Positions 15,295 through 62,089 of a stretch of 64,000 bases of DNA are shown here, one piece after another. Location: positions 62,001 to 126,000 of the forward strand of contig NSJX01000027.1 in assembly GCA_002286715.1 (NCBI GenBank), read 5' to 3'. The notes beneath the pieces were generated by a model. That model ran no database searches and was not told the origin of the DNA. It worked only from the letters and a program-made list of their open reading frames with translations. The stretch comes from Dentipellis sp. KUC8613. Its lineage: Eukaryota; Basidiomycota; Agaricomycetes; Russulales; Hericiaceae. Position 1 is the stretch's first letter. Every line of letters begins with the position of its first letter. A program made the position numbers and the translations under genes.

Positions 15295-18200
15295 ATGCGG
15301 CATCCTGACGAGTCCAGTGATTCAGAGGAACACGAGTCTGACTACAGCGACGATGACTCCGAGTCTTCGGATGAAGCGTATGGTACCAAATGTAGGTTGT
15401 TACAGTGATCCCATTTTCTAATGTTGACATGATAAGGTCTAACAACTTCTTCTTTCGGCCCATCTCTGCTGCAGCGTCAAAAATCAAGGTAGTCAAAGTC
15501 GCGAAGCGCCCAGCTGCTGCTACGCCACGCCGTGCTTCTTCTTCTTCCAAGAAGTCCACTGGACTCAGGCCATGGAAGGTCAGGGGAAACTCCAGACGCC
15601 AGACATTCCCATACTTCCGTCATAATGGGAAACTGAACGTCTCATGGCAACGTATGACCGGTCTCAACATCCACCGCAACTACGGCAAATCCCGGTCTTC
15701 GTCCCGCACGTGGGGTGCAGCTTCAGGAATCAGAGAGTTAGTGCAGAACCTCTACGATGCGATACTGGATGTCCGCGGCATTTTCCCGCACGAGGTGCGA
15801 GTTGAGGAACTTCGCAAAGGGGAGGAGGTCGCCGCCGACGCGCCGTCCTTAGATCTCTCAACAAATCCACTCGAGCTTTTCCTCTATGACATGTCCAGAC
15901 CATCGGCCTGGGGCATGGACACGAAGCCTGTCGGATACATCGCCTGGAAACCGTCTTCTGAGCATGCTGGTTTTGGTGACCTCGAGCTCTACAATGTAGG
16001 GCGCATGCCTGATACCGCTTGGTGTCTCGGAGGATCGTCCAAAGGTTCCAACCCTCACTTGATCGGACAGTACGGCGATGGCTTGAAGATGGGTGGGTCT
16101 CTTTATACTCCTGTGCTGGATATGCAGATTGAACACGTGTTTCAAAGGCATTAATGCCCTCCTGAGGGAGGACGCAAGCGTGCTGTACCATACCGAAAAC
16201 GATGTTTGGGTCTTTGGATACCTCGAGGACCGCCTCTTCTACCACGAGAAGAAGTCTACAAGATGCGTGGATGGTGTCATCGTTCAAGTCCGCAACATCC
16301 CATTGCACAGTCTGGCGCTCGACCGCTTTCTCTTCCTGCGTCCACCGACAAGTATATTAACCTACAGCCAAGTCACTGGGTGGACTCGGGGTTGCGTATT
16401 GTTGGACGACAAACATCGCTCGCATATCTATGTATGATGCTCATGTTACAGTAATACCCGACTGACCATGCTTCTTTCTGTAGGTGAAGGGTATTCTCGT
16501 GCGTGAAGAAAAGGACAAAACGACGGGTCTGGTATACGGGATCAATATCGCGGAAGACATCTCGATGAGCCGTGATCGCTCGGCCTTGGAGGACCGAACT
16601 GATGCAGCCGAAGCAATCTTCAGGATATGGCAGCCCTTGCTTCTGACTTCCGACGATGCGCGGACACGGTATCTGGATCTCTTGCAGAACAACGAAAGGG
16701 TGCTCGATGTAGAGGGCGTGGAGGATCTTAATCCCGCCTGTGCGAAGGCGCTCCTATCCACGCTGCAAAAGCAACATTCCGACACCGCTTTCTTCTTCTA
16801 CTCACGAGAAACTACTGATGCAAGACGGATTATCGAAGATTATCTGCATAAGAAGCCCGTCTTGCTTACTGAGTCCCTATATGACGCTCTCCGAGTTCAC
16901 AAGACTATCTTGACTCCGGCCGAGGCTCAGGAAAAGGCCTTTCGATCGCTCCCTCCTGTCGAGCCGGATGAGCAGGCGTCTATCTATGTCAGGCATGTGC
17001 TGCATTCGATCCGAGCACTGCTGCACTTGGATGTGCAGACGGCGCGGTTCCTCAAATCCCTGGCGTTCAAATCAGGCCACTTCGATGTTCTTGAGATCTC
17101 AGTGACGGGTGACCAGGTGCATCTCACCGAGAACCTGCTGAAGCTTGACTACGTTCATAAAAAGCCAGGCTATAGCGCCTGCCCATATGCTGAGCCCACC
17201 GAAGAAGACGATCTAACGACCAAGTCTATCTGCTGTGACTGTGCATCTACGTTCATCAGCACCTCTCTAGTCGATGACTCAGGCGTCTCGCAACAGAGCC
17301 GGGAGCAACTGAAATCTCGCCAGAGGCACCTCATCGGCCAGACACCACGGAATTTGTCCTATACGATCGATGCTCCGGGCTCGGTCAGCGTTTCCTGGTC
17401 GACAGCCGTTTCGATCCCTGCTTCTCGGGGATTTGTCGTCTCTGTCATGGAAGTCAAGCTTGACGCGTTGTTGTCTACGGAACTGGTTTACACAGCGGAG
17501 CCCAGCGGTAAGGAACCAGCCACAGGTATGGCAGATTTTACATCCATACTGAAATCCGGGTCTAACGTATCTATTCAGAAGTCGATGCAAGACAGTACAG
17601 GACAACCCCCGAGCCGACTATCGTCCTGTCTGACCTCAAGCCAGGCACCCGGTATGCCCTGCAAGCCCGCGCAGGCTCTAAGAAGGAAGCGATCTGGAGC
17701 ACCCCCCAAACATTCGCCATCCCGCCTTTATCTGTCACTGGTGTTTGCTGTCAGTGGCCGTCGCCCGGATCTATACGTCTCCAGTGGGATGCCGCCCCTG
17801 GAGCTGCGAAGTACAGTCTTATTTTACTGGCTGCGGATCAAGGAATAATAGACCATCACGAAGATATATCCGATTGTCATTGGGAAGGACAGGCGGATGA
17901 AAAACGCGTAGAGAGCATTCGTATTTCGTCCTGTTCATCTGAAGGCATATCCAACCTTCAACCTTTCGAAGCTCTTGTCGAACATATACCAGCCCACCCA
18001 CAGCCCAAGGCAGTAGAGAGCCCGAAAAAGACGATTCCTCCAGAACCCACCCCAGCAGTCTCCACCGAGGTTCCAACGTCCCCTAAACCGAAGAAGTCCC
18101 CGAGCCCATCTCGTCGATCGCCCTCCGAGTCCTCGGCAGATCCTCCTCCGAAGCAACAGCCTGCTAGTAGTCCTAATATCGCCAAGCCTGCTAAGAGTCC

Positions 18201-20581
18201 AAGCCCCCACTGCGTCGATTTGGATTCAGATTCAGACAACGAAATGGCCTTTGAGCCGTTAAACTTCACTCGTGATGACGACTCGGATAGCGATGTCGAA
18301 CTTGTTGACACGAACGAAGATTATGAGACTGGCGCGGACGTCTCAACAGATCTGCAAGTGAGTTCATTTCCCCCAATACTCTAGCCTTTGAGGACGCTGA
18401 TGTCCGGCACTACTTCTAGGGGATCCTGTCGACATTGTTCGATCGACCTGAAAGCCCTCCACCCGTCGCATCGCATGCTAGTAGCCCAAAGAAATCGGGC
18501 CGTTCCAGCGGCACAGCGCCGGTCAGTCGCAAACCGGCAGAGCAAATTCGCAGCGGATGTTCGTACCAATTCAACATGGGTGACATCCGCTTCGCAATCT
18601 CAATCCACAAGGTCACCTCTGGAAACCCGAAACACATCTTTGGCACACGCTTCATCTTTGCATCCGATTATTTCAAGGATGTCTATCTCGATCCACTAAC
18701 ATTGAGTGACCTCCCCGATCACGAACTCATCAGGCTCGTCGAACCCGATGTCAATCCAGACCATATCGAGCAGGCTGAGTTCGACTACGACGTGGTGTAT
18801 CGTTGGTTGAAGGGCTCCAAATTCAAAGAGATCAAGATACGACAGGGGGAAGATGCGCCCCCCGGTGTCCACCATTGGTCGTTGTCGATGTCAGGCGATG
18901 CCAAAGGCAAGACACTCACGATCTTCAACAAAGACAATAGCTTTACCTTGGATCCATCCCGTGTAAGCGCAGCTTCAGTCGTGGATCTGTATGCCGGCTG
19001 CGGAGGCGTTTCACGAGGGTTCGATGCTGCTGGATTCAATGTCGTTGCTGCCGTCGAGGAGCGGATGGATGCGGCCATCAGTTGGCAAGTGAGTATGACC
19101 ATAAATAAGTCACAGCTTTCCTTTGCTGATCTATGACTAGTTCAACTTTCCAGATGCTCCGATGCATGCTGAGAATCTGCAGGTGTTCCTTGACGATCTG
19201 GAAGCTCGAAAGATAGCGCCGCCGGATCGCGTGACCGTCTTGACGATCTCTGTGCCATCCAACATTAGCTCTCACCATTCGAAATTAATGCACTTCACGG
19301 CTATGGTCAAGCAAGCTATCACTCAGATACAGCCCGCCTTCTTGGTGAGTTGTTACTCCTTATTGCTTCGTCTCCAGCAGATAATGTGAATTCTATCCCA
19401 TTCATTCTAGTGTATATTCGGTTGGCCGGTATGTTCTCGCCCGGTGGTATAATTTCCAACCTACTGATGCTATAGAGTTCAGGAATTTCTTGGTTGCCAT
19501 GGCGGGTACGGTTTCCATGGCATGGAGCTGAGCCTCCTGTCGGGAGGGTACTCTGTCTCATACAAGTTGCTGGACATTGCGGAATACGGAGTGGCTGCGA
19601 CCAGCGAGCGCTTGGTTCTCATTGCGTCAGCAGCTGGCTTGCGTCTTCCAGACTGGCCTCAGGAAAGTCATAGTTCCCAGAGAGAGGGTACTGCATTCAA
19701 GCAATTCCAGACTGTGCGCGATGCAATACAGGATCTCGAATGGCGCAACCCGCGGCAGCCTGCGGATGCATTTGACATGAGGCGGGGTGTATACTGCACT
19801 GTCCCGGATGGTCACCAGGTCCAGCAGCCAAGTGACTATGCTGTCGCTCTAGGAGCTATGCAGGACAAGGTGGTGGGTCACCACATTACAGGTCCGGCAG
19901 AATTTGCGGAAAAGAGGCCGATTGCGGATTACGAGCAGCCATACCCACGTGAGTAGATCCATTTGATATTGAGAGCAGTTCTTGACTGATGGTCCATCCA
20001 GTCCCAGCCGGGACACCGCAATTCTGGCCGCGTCGTCACCCTAGTAAGTAAACTAGCCGTCCGAGGGTGATTGGACTCGCTTCACAAGTACCTTAACTAC
20101 AGAACATGTCGACGAGTATATTTCGCCGCGAGAACTTGCAAGGATTGTCTCGTTCCCAGTCCGTTATCCTATTGAAAAACATTCGAACCTAGCCCTAACG
20201 GTTCGGCTGCTACAGGATTTACACCGGTTCAACGGGCATCGCTACGAACAATACGTCCAAATCACCACGGCTGTCCCACCGCTGCTCAGCAAAGCCATCG
20301 CAATGAGTATCCAACGCTCGCTGCTGCAGCAGTTCCCCGAGCATACCCTTCAGTCCAACCGCGTAGCACCGGATACCTCGAGCGATCCGCCCTCAGGTGC
20401 TCCGAAAGCGGGTGGTAAGTTAAATGGATCACCCGTGCGGCCAGGAAGCACCGGCCAGAAGAGGCACATACCCGATGAAACTACCGAGTCCGGTCCAAGC
20501 TTCGAACATTCTTCCAAGCGGATGAAGCTTGAGCAGGACGAGGTGGAGGATATCAAGGAGACAATCGATCCTCAGCAGTAA
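15295..20581 (+). CDS. GHKL ATPase-FN3-C5 DNA methyltransferase-like fusion, predicted catalytically dead as a methyltransferase
   Basis: Eleven exons (15295-15391, 15475-16092, 16148-16431, 16484-17525, 17579-18357, 18420-19088, 19141-19344, 19411-19428, 19483-19948, 20002-20043, 20103-20581) give 1565 aa. Order: acidic N-terminus; GHKL/Hsp90-like ATPase domain with N-box RELVQNLYDAI (about residue 121) and G2 box IGQYGDGLKMG (about 232); two FN3-like units (about 630-775, with LKPGTRYALQARAGS and SIRLQWDAAPGAAKYSL); a Ser/Pro/acid linker; an uncharacterised block with GDIRFAISIHKV; then a DNA C5-methyltransferase fold. Motif I is intact (VVDLYAGCGGVSRGF, about 1128). The motif IV region reads VLTISVPSNISS instead of carrying PCQ, the ENV position reads LCIFGWPEFLG, and the QxRxR position reads YGVAATSERL. 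The motif X region, TTAVPPLLSKAIAMS, lacks the usual GN. So the SAM-site scaffold remains but the catalytic Cys, Glu and Arg set is missing. Role is inferred to be chromatin-related. Exon 4/5 and exon 8 boundaries are the least sure. Confidence 0.8.
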
Positions 20582-21048
20582 AGCTATCTCTATTTTCCTG
20601 TCTTTTGTTTTCTATTGACATGTTCACATCTTTCTGCTGAACACCAAGCGATTCCATGCAAAATACCGCACAATATCTTACTAGCAATCTTATTATAGCC
20701 TTTTCGTTCCGGCAACTTGGAGCGAATGTTTCGTATAGACCAGCTAATAGCTCGCGACACTATACATTAGAAAGAGCCCCTTTATGTTACATAGCTTATG
20801 TCCAGACTTACATTCCTAATACCATAAACACTTCCTTCACTTTGAGTCACTTTGAGCACTTGACTGATTGGCGGGAGCGCAGCAGCCTGTCATATGGCAC
20901 TACGGTGTGATCCGATGGACGATTTCGTCCAACGGAATTTCTTTCTTAGTTCGAACTCCTCGTCCTAGTGACTATAAGGGCCCCGGATCTCTCACTCCAT
21001 GGCTCCTAAAATTCTATCCTCGTCCCGTCACTGCACACCAGTCTCACC
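20582..21048. promoter_or_regulatory. Spacer upstream of epoxide hydrolase
   Basis: No gene is seen in this 467-bp stretch. An A/T-rich element (actataaggg) near 20971-20980 could be the core promoter of the following gene. Confidence 0.35.
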
Positions 21049-59644: not shown

Positions 59645-62089
59645 ATGCTGCCCGTCGCCGTCTCAGACGCCATCAAACGGCTGCCGGAATTCGTAGATCT
59701 CTCTTTGCTCGGCGTCCTGCTTCTGTCCTATGCCCTGTACGAGATCACGGAGTACAGCATGCGCAGGCGACGGATGCCGCCTGGGCCCCGCGGGATCCCT
59801 CTGGTCGGGAATCGCCACCAGATGCCCGTCGTCAAGCCGTGGAGGCAGTTTGCGGCGTGGAACAAGCAGTACGGTGTGTTATGCATCATGGATTGTACGG
59901 AAATGTATTGGTTATTGGTGCTCAACCTCGTTCTTAGGTCCCGTGGTTTCCCTTTTCCTCGGCCGTACGCCCGTGATAGGTCTGTACCTCTTCGCGTTGG
60001 ATTGTAATAACTTTCGCTGAAATGCCGTCTGTACAGTCTTGGGCACGGCCCAGGCCGCCTGGGACCTGCTGGAAAAACGCTCTGAGATCTATTCAAGCAG
60101 GCCTCGCTTCGTTGTCGCGTATGGGAATCCATTAACATACCACGATAGTCCACTAACCCATATTTCCCTCTGCGGTTATATTTCTAAGAGGCGAAATCCT
60201 GTCGGACAACCAGCGCGGGCTCATGCTGCCAGTGGGAGAGGGTTGGCGTAAATTCCGCCGCGTATGTTCAGAAGACAAGCGATGATTTAATTTGATTTTG
60301 AATGAAGCTCGGCATGATTCATAGGTCTACCACACGGGGTTTCACTCACGGAAAGCGAACACTTACAGGGATATCCAGTCTCTAGAGTCCAAACTACTGA
60401 TGCACCAGCTGCTGCATGAACCAAATGACTACGAACGGCATGTTCAACGGTCAGTCGGCTCGATTGCTCGACCAGCCCTCTGTAGAACTAATTTAAGTTC
60501 ATGCTCGCAAGCTACGCGGCTAGTGTCGTTGTTTCCGTGTCATATGGGAAACGTATTGACAGCGTGGATGAGTTCATCGTGAAGGAGAATATGGATTCCA
60601 TGGCTTGTGCGCACTTCCTTTCATATAATACTGTAGCTTCTCCGACCATTGCAGCCGTGTAGACTTGACAAGGTGTGTTTGGATAACTCTTACTTCTATC
60701 AACAGAAATTGAAGATACGGGAATTACTTCCAAATCAGCGTAAAGTAAGCCCCACTTTCCTGCTACCTTCGTCTCCGCGTCTCACCATCCTCAGCATTCC
60801 TGGAAAATACCTCGTTGAGTCATGGCCCTGGCTTCTGAAACTTCCTGTAGGCCCTTTCGTTTCCCTGTATCCTGTAAAAATCCATTTCCGGCTTTAGAAA
60901 AGCATGCAATGGTTTCGCCGAATCCCCGAGCTCCGTCGACAGCGCGAAATCAAATTCCTCGTCGGTCTGCTCGACGAGGTCAGAGCCCGGATTAACGACG
61001 GCAGGTCGCTTTCCACGAGCCATCAACAACTGCTCACTAATTGACTTGGACAAAGGTACATGCCCACCCTGCTTGGCGTCCGTCGTACTGGCAGAAAACG
61101 AGAAACTGGGGCTGAGCGATATTGAATTGGCGTACACGCTCAGTTCTCCATTCGGCGCCGGGATCGAGACGGTGAGCGTGCACACATCATCTAGTCGTCG
61201 CAAAAGGTATTTAAGCTATCATCCAAGACCTCTGCGACGATCTTCGTATTCTTCTGTAGGTAACTTTGAGTCATTGATCTCTAAATTTACATAGAGCGGC
61301 GTCCCCCAGTGGCCATGCTTCACTTTCCGGAGCCAATGCGCAAAGCTCAAGCTGAACTCGACAGGGTAGTGGGATCCGACAGGCTCCCCGACTTCCAAGA
61401 CGCCGAAAGCCTCCCATACGTCCGCGCTCTCATCAACGAGGTGTTCCGCTGGAGACCCGTCGCCGTGCTTGGCGGCACACCACACGCAAGTATCGCAGAT
61501 GACGAATACAACGGCATGTGAGTGCTCGTGCCGGGGAGCCTGGGATGGACCGCATTGGCCACATATCGAATGATGCTCATGAGCCCTCCTTGCCCCTTCA
61601 GGTTCATACCCAAAGGCTCAACCATTTTCGCGAACCTCGAGTAAGCAAGGCTGCACTCGCCCGCGGCGCACACCTGACTCGCACTGACGTCCGCGCGATC
61701 GTCCCAGCGGGATAATGCGCGACCCCGCCACGTTCCCCGACCCAGATGCCTTCATGCCCGAGCGCTGGCTGCCCGAGACCCGCACGAGCACGCACCCGCG
61801 TCTCCAGCTCGACACCTTCGACCTGCCCTTCGGATTCGGGAGGCGCATCTGCCCCGGCCAGCACCTCGCGTCGAATTCGGTATTCATCAACGTCGCTCGT
61901 ATACTCTGGGCGTTCGACATCCTGCCGAAAGAGGGCGCCCCGCTGCCTGATGTATGGGCGTTCTCAGATGGATTTAATTCCTGGCCTGAGAGATTCGAGT
62001 GCAAGATCGAGGTGAGGAGCGAGAGAGCTAGGGAGTGCATCGAGAGGGAGTGGGAGACGGCGAAGGAGGCGTTAGGAAAATGGCAGTAA
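59645..62089 (+). CDS. Cytochrome P450 monooxygenase, copy 1
   Basis: Fourteen exons (59645-59873, 59938-59979, 60037-60118, 60189-60261, 60325-60449, 60512-60606, 60663-60672, 60795-60846, 60898-61000, 61056-61171, 61228-61255, 61310-61517, 61602-61640, 61708-62089) give 527 aa. A signal-anchor helix (LSLLGVLLLSYALYEI) and the hinge MPPGPRGIPLVGN mark an ER-bound class II P450. I-helix FGAGIETTSATIFVF, K-helix INEVFRWRPV (ExxR), PERW and the heme loop FGFGRRICPGQHLA are intact. Intron 9 (61001-61055) is a GC-AG intron absent from the sister gene; without it the frame stops. The 10-nt exon 7 and the following 122-nt intron are the least certain part. It resembles CYP64-like fungal P450s; substrate unknown. 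Confidence 0.82.

Follow-up and report, generated by a model that had tools for sequence, protein, structure and literature searches.

We analysed a window of 64,000 nucleotides from Dentipellis sp. KUC8613 (positions 62,001 to 126,000 of contig NSJX01000027.1, forward strand), part of a 34.1 Mb genome, in which a gene at 15295..20581 joins a GHKL ATPase to a C5-methyltransferase fold. It is a single open reading gene of 12 exons encoding 1546 amino acids after splice correction, as judged from the splice model and comparison with a paralogue, and the order of domains in the protein is GHKL ATPase, two FN3 domains, a segment without assignment and the C5-methyltransferase fold. An initial annotation, made from the letters of the window, had described a GHKL ATPase and two FN3-like units fused to a methyltransferase fold stripped of its catalytic motifs except for an intact motif I, and this architecture is borne out as one open gene. 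Its structure is as follows.

15295-15391, 15475-16092, 16148-16431, 16484-17525, 17579-18357, 18420-19088, plus strand: exons 1-6 (splice model)
19141-19344, 19411-19428, 19483-19948, 20002-20043, 20103-20158, 20216-20581, plus strand: exons 7-12 (splice model)
19411..19428, plus strand: 18-nucleotide micro-exon CIFGWP at the ENV position, with an equal-size exon CIFGQP in the paralogue
20159..20215, plus strand: 57-nucleotide in-frame GT-AG intron, coding in the initial annotation and in the deposited model

The stretch at 20159-20215 is probably an intron and not coding, because its 19 residues are missing from the aligned relatives P0002, P0003 and P0004 and the deposited model of the paralogue (P0002) has an intron at the equivalent site. 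When these 57 nucleotides were read as coding, as in the first splice model, the protein had 1565 residues; the initial annotation was thus right about a single spliced gene and too long in its translation. The deposited protein P0001 (DENSPDRAFT_326921, Dentipellis sp. KUC8613) matches 98% of the gene model at 100% identity. It retains the 19 residues and has a different first exon (15295-15474 region). The start at 15295 is preferred over the deposited one, since it gives an acidic first exon similar to the N-terminus of P0002, and the deposited model seems to be wrong close to both ends.

The methyltransferase fold is supported by both a profile match and a fold match. Its features are listed here.

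18975..20326, plus strand: C5-methyltransferase fold, residues 1126-1462, catalytically degenerate
18984..19007, plus strand: motif I DLYAGCGG, intact (alignment)
19234..19272, plus strand: motif IV region TVLTISVPSNISS, without Cys-Gln (alignment, frame and junction scans)
19582..19626, plus strand: motif VIII region EYGVAATSERLVLIA (alignment)
20261..20302, plus strand: motif X ITTAVPPLLSKAIA, with the Asn of GNAVPP lost (alignment)

The motifs were compared in an alignment of five methyltransferase domains, those of the window protein, the paralogue P0002, P0003 from Artomyces, P0004 from Botryobasidium and P0007, a Logan protein that also carries GHKL and methyltransferase parts. P0004 retains all three catalytic motifs, with Cys-Gln in TSCQGFS, ENV in YENV and PQxRxR as PQHRKR, and P0007 keeps PPCQPWS and PQHRKR, with EQV instead of ENV (LEQV). 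At the same positions the window protein, the paralogue and the Artomyces protein read VPSN, APLE and PSRE for motif IV, IFGW, IFGQ and FEAT for motif VI, and AATSER, AATSKR and AATRIR for motif VIII. The Asn of motif X (GNAVP), present in P0004 and P0007, is gone from the same three. The window protein retains the acidic residue of motif II, and its motif III is ENL. Loss of the catalytic motifs is therefore common to three Russulales genes in two genera (two in Dentipellis, one in Artomyces), the degradation being milder in Artomyces than in the Dentipellis copies. The initial annotation had read VPSN in place of PCQ and seen no ENV, with which the alignment agrees; it had also given QxRxR as replaced by AATSER, a substitution that is correct, though the last Arg remains as the sole residue of that motif. 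The variability of motif IV, which it had proposed to check across relatives, extends even to the two paralogues.

Neither CQ nor EN[VI] occurs in any forward frame of 18900-20582. As a frame scan alone is blind to a codon split by an intron, a junction scan was added, in which none of 230 candidate GT-AG introns (35-200 nucleotides, within 18990-19560) created PCQ, SCQ or EN[VI], and two created a bare CQ. Because neither scan restores PCQ or ENV, the loss is genuine and not the result of a hidden exon; alternative exons around 19141-19520, which the initial annotation had named as capable of restoring both motifs, were among those covered.

The paralogue lies around 51 kb from the window gene, at contig positions 20855-26088 on the minus strand, the window gene being at 77295-82581 on the plus strand. 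It is open, has 12 exons including an 18-nucleotide micro-exon, and the deposited P0002 could be re-spliced exactly onto the locus. Neither full-length Dentipellis copy contains a stop or frameshift, and their identity is 57% overall and 73% in the methyltransferase outside motifs IV-VI. The ratio of nonsynonymous to synonymous substitution rates (dN/dS; Nei-Gojobori, 1485 codons of the window gene against the paralogue) is 0.185 overall, 0.13 for the GHKL part and 0.106 for the methyltransferase. Within the latter, motifs I-III give 0.047, motifs IV-VI 0.293 and the remainder 0.084; all are rough values given a dS of 1.78, near saturation. Motifs IV-VI excepted, constraint on the methyltransferase is thus similar to that on the GHKL part. 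Identity between the paralogues is 23/56 in motifs IV-VI versus 199/274 in the remaining methyltransferase (p=1.5e-5). A deficit of this kind at p<0.05 is found in seven of nine pairs, uncorrected and not independent of one another; the exceptions are P0004/P0007, in which the motifs are intact (17/62 versus 89/236, p=0.14), and P0003/P0007. A constrained frame with a relaxed catalytic loop is the pattern that would be expected of a pseudoenzyme. As the loss is shared with the paralogue and with another genus, the window copy is more than a decayed allele. The initial annotation had held that intact homologues would mark it as one; an intact homologue does exist in Botryobasidium, but decay does not follow. 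Its view of a pseudo-methyltransferase that is retained and not rotting is upheld by the loss in three Russulales genes and the low dN/dS outside motifs IV-VI.

Full-length protein searches returned five and six proteins, the Dentipellis copies included, though such searches find only proteins sharing short words, so that the small number is no proof of rarity. The relatives with names come from four fungi, Dentipellis, Artomyces, Botryobasidium and Tetrapyrgos. The protein of Tetrapyrgos nigripes (P0006) has a GHKL part by phrog_6077 and FN3-like stretches by eye, and no methyltransferase was detected in it; it may be a truncated gene model. Among the 120 of 939 matches listed in a search for methyltransferase neighbours, the organism-named rows besides P0004 were three, all bacterial, and no further GHKL fusion was found among the 126 neighbour proteins retrieved. 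Two other combinations were observed. In P0005, a JGI metagenome protein, the partner of a phrog_6077-type GHKL is a SET domain (PF00856, 4.2e-11), which makes this a second fusion with a chromatin writer. P0008, an ENA protein of 2187 residues, has a GP88 domain together with five stretches that match PF00145 (DNA methylase).

Scanning the genome with PF00145 gave five loci, the window gene and four others, in a list that is incomplete since the paralogue was missed. Two of the others have MET1/DNMT1 as best PDB matches and contain ENV and PQxRxR; by eye one reads LPCQ, and in the other (L018) PCQ requires a Cys codon interrupted by an intron. One further locus is DNMT2-like by eye. The last of the four, L021 (C150; the same place as L001), is an atypical DNA_methylase locus whose motif IV reads GTSCVDYSN and which also carries LENV.

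The N-terminal and middle parts of the window protein carry these features.

15660..16594, plus strand: GHKL ATPase module, residues 95-370, phrog_6077-like (E=8.4e-12; alignment with phage open reading frames)
15732..15761, plus strand: N-box RELVQNLYDA (alignments)
15981..16007, plus strand: G1 box region LELYNVGRM, with Asn in place of the canonical Asp (alignment)
16062..16161, plus strand: G2 box IGQYGDGLKMGINAL, interrupted by an intron at 16093-16147 (alignment)
17348..17970, plus strand: two FN3 domains, residues 622-811, with an intron at 17526-17578 inside
18549..18851, plus strand: segment upstream of the methyltransferase, BAH-like by eye, unconfirmed (low predicted local distance difference test, pLDDT)

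The R, E, N and D of the N-box are invariant in all seven eukaryotic rows, the window included, and in 12/12 rows of a second alignment. At the G1 position 12 of the 16 rows have Asn, the phage proteins L032, L033 and L035 have Asp, and P0007, doubtfully aligned here, has Ser. A structure predicted for a 751-residue N-terminal fragment has a mean pLDDT of 58.8 and a predicted template modelling score of 0.39, and the fold-search matches among the 50 rows listed in each list all fall on the FN3 part; the GHKL assignment is for this reason taken from profiles and not from the model. The BAH identity of 18549-18851, a by-eye impression, gained no support: the segment has no Pfam match at E<=10 and is modelled with low confidence. 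A Pfam scan of the window protein at E<=1 gave no RFTS, CXXC or BAH domain.

The Dentipellis, Artomyces and Botryobasidium proteins match phrog_6077, a group of phage GHKL proteins of unknown function (P0001 8.4e-12, P0002 3.4e-8, P0003 1.7e-11, P0004 5.1e-22), as do P0005 (4.5e-21), P0006 (7.1e-9) and P0007 (1.3e-17). They share with it the N-box, a GSSSK-like stretch, a G2 box of the form GQxGEGxKxG and a conserved RDR, while the phage open reading frames examined are of ~360-540 residues and terminate without FN3 or methyltransferase. No methyltransferase was found at E<=0.01 beside the phage GHKL genes among 466 stop-to-stop open reading frames of at least 90 residues at loci L025-L035. 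For bacterial or archaeal relatives, a single pattern gave 73 matches in genome contigs, none of which is a relative by tblastn. In a tree of the GHKL part that omits L034 and L029 (the latter duplicates L028), six of the seven eukaryote rows fall in one clan (97/98), and P0007 sits on a long branch beside phage L033/L035, a placement flagged as unreliable. The labels require two changes on this tree, and a single origin is neither supported nor contradicted.

Several of the phage GHKL proteins (L025, L026, L027, L032, L033, L035) have by eye an HExxH stretch near the C-terminus, and L032 matches the metallo-protease phrog_87 (1.4e-5), so that a phage GHKL-peptidase fusion is possible. The L026 protein was matched in 113 of 50,697 phage records, and annotations among the 25 listed include hypothetical, HATPase, histidine kinase-like ATPase and RIIA. 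One phrog_6077 phage protein is annotated as 'RIIA lysis inhibitor'. Kinship with T4 rIIA itself was rejected: it matches neither GHKL profile at E<=100, and matches other PHROGs but not phrog_6077. In phage rIIA proteins GHKL is likewise joined to variable C-termini, according to one report (PMC7824862).

Taken together, the sequences make a strong case that the window protein is a pseudoenzyme, and suggest that it regulates or anchors instead of acting as an enzyme. It is perhaps an ATP-gated, methyltransferase-derived protein that binds DNA or a partner, possibly with the two DNMT1-like genes of the genome. In this reading, ATP would close a dimer of the GHKL domain, as in other GHKL machines. 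The FN3 domains, with the acidic linker, would extend the protein's reach or contact partners, and the catalytically dead methyltransferase fold would be a docking module for DNA or a DNMT. The logic would be comparable to that of DNMT3L as a pseudoenzyme partner and of MORC as an ATP clamp. We see an even chance that the gene is such a retained pseudo-methyltransferase which, gated by ATP, serves the DNMT1-like enzymes or silent chromatin as an anchor or stimulator.

Several points weigh against this. The mechanism it presumes is deduced from sequence; the motif-less set is small, three genes in two genera; and the dN/dS values are rough, as noted. The Artomyces/P0007 pair has no significant deficit in motifs IV-VI (11/59 versus 67/229, p=0.14) despite the motif loss in Artomyces. 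Binding of S-adenosylmethionine is doubtful in view of the missing motif X Asn and a motif III that reads ENL. A change of the G1-box Asp to Asn can abolish ATP binding in other GHKL proteins, such as Hsp90, and the window ATPase could therefore be dead as well.

It is unlikely that the family is active elsewhere as an ATP-coupled DNA methyltransferase, of which the Russulales copies are a slowly vanishing, nearly functionless transitional relic. Retention of Cys-Gln and PQxRxR in P0004 and P0007 and the lower conservation of motifs IV-VI between paralogues would fit this, as would the four named fungi if they mean a patchy distribution, but two full-length copies free of stops and frameshifts, 73% identity outside motifs IV-VI in copies at 57%, and the value of 0.047 for motifs I-III argue for retention. 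We regard it as equally improbable that GHKL-FN3 is the working half and that the C-terminal methyltransferase fold has only a structural role or mediates protein contacts, unrelated to DNA methylation; the conserved GHKL motifs and the Tetrapyrgos protein point that way, yet the methyltransferase is constrained like the GHKL part and the Tetrapyrgos protein is possibly truncated. That cytosine or another substrate is still methylated by a non-standard mechanism, for which the retained motif I and acidic motif II residue might speak, is very improbable given that the Cys, Gln, Glu-Asn, motif VIII Gln and first Arg are replaced, the motif X Asn is gone and the motif IV region is unlike even between the paralogues. 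An active enzyme concealed by a mis-annotated splice form is scarcely credible, for although the gene model had one intron error and two junctions give a bare CQ, the frames and the tested junctions hold none of the full motifs and the splice pattern of the paralogue agrees.

A bolder extension of the pseudo-methyltransferase reading is doubtful, though not far-fetched: a hitherto undescribed eukaryotic DNMT class gated by a phage-type GHKL ATPase may have been built independently of the SNF2-containing DNMT5, with the Russulales lineage losing catalysis to become a DNMT3L-like, MORC-like ATP clamp that steers the DNMT1-like enzymes still present; MORC itself is reported to be missing from fungi. 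With active-looking and dead members, the GHKL-methyltransferase fusion offers a natural series bearing on the role of the methyltransferase fold without catalysis, on how an ATPase couples to methylation and on a possible contribution of phage ATPases to eukaryotic silencing systems.

The initial annotation had likened the ATPase to MORC-type chromatin proteins. Of this the GHKL assignment stands, and membership of the MORC type is not supported, since the direct match is to phrog_6077 and the profile reach to MORC2 (1.9e-5) is remote and no better than that to HSP90; no Morc6_S5 match was found in the Pfam scan at E<=1. The N-box and G2 box shared with MORC ATPases are superfamily-wide and not diagnostic, and the link from MORC to silencing would hold by analogy. 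A MORC-like role would be attractive because MORC is reported to be absent from fungi (PMC2292703). The fungal DNMTs listed in a review are DNMT1/Masc2, Dim-2, RID/Masc1, DNMT5 and DNMT2 (PMC7862722). The term GHKL was not found in a term search of four DNMT papers (PMC7862722, PMC5073141, PMC13297926, PMC12344493), nor was a GHKL-DNMT fusion found in a literature represented mainly by titles and abstract openings, with subscription papers mostly uncovered. Compared with DNMT1, MET1 and DIM-2, the window protein has GHKL and FN3 domains instead and has lost the catalytic motifs. DNMT3L is a pseudoenzyme partner in the DNMT3 family and is not known to have an ATPase; the window protein resembles it as a DNMT fold without catalysis and may share its partner role. 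DNMT3L is also named an inactive paralogue in one paper (PMC13297926). A parallel in fungi is DNMT5, an ATPase joined to a DNMT as an SNF2-methyltransferase fusion (PMC7862722). The window ATPase is GHKL and not SNF2, neither SNF2 nor RING being found in the Pfam scan at E<=1; the family is an ATPase-DNMT fusion with another class of ATPase and a catalytically lost lineage.

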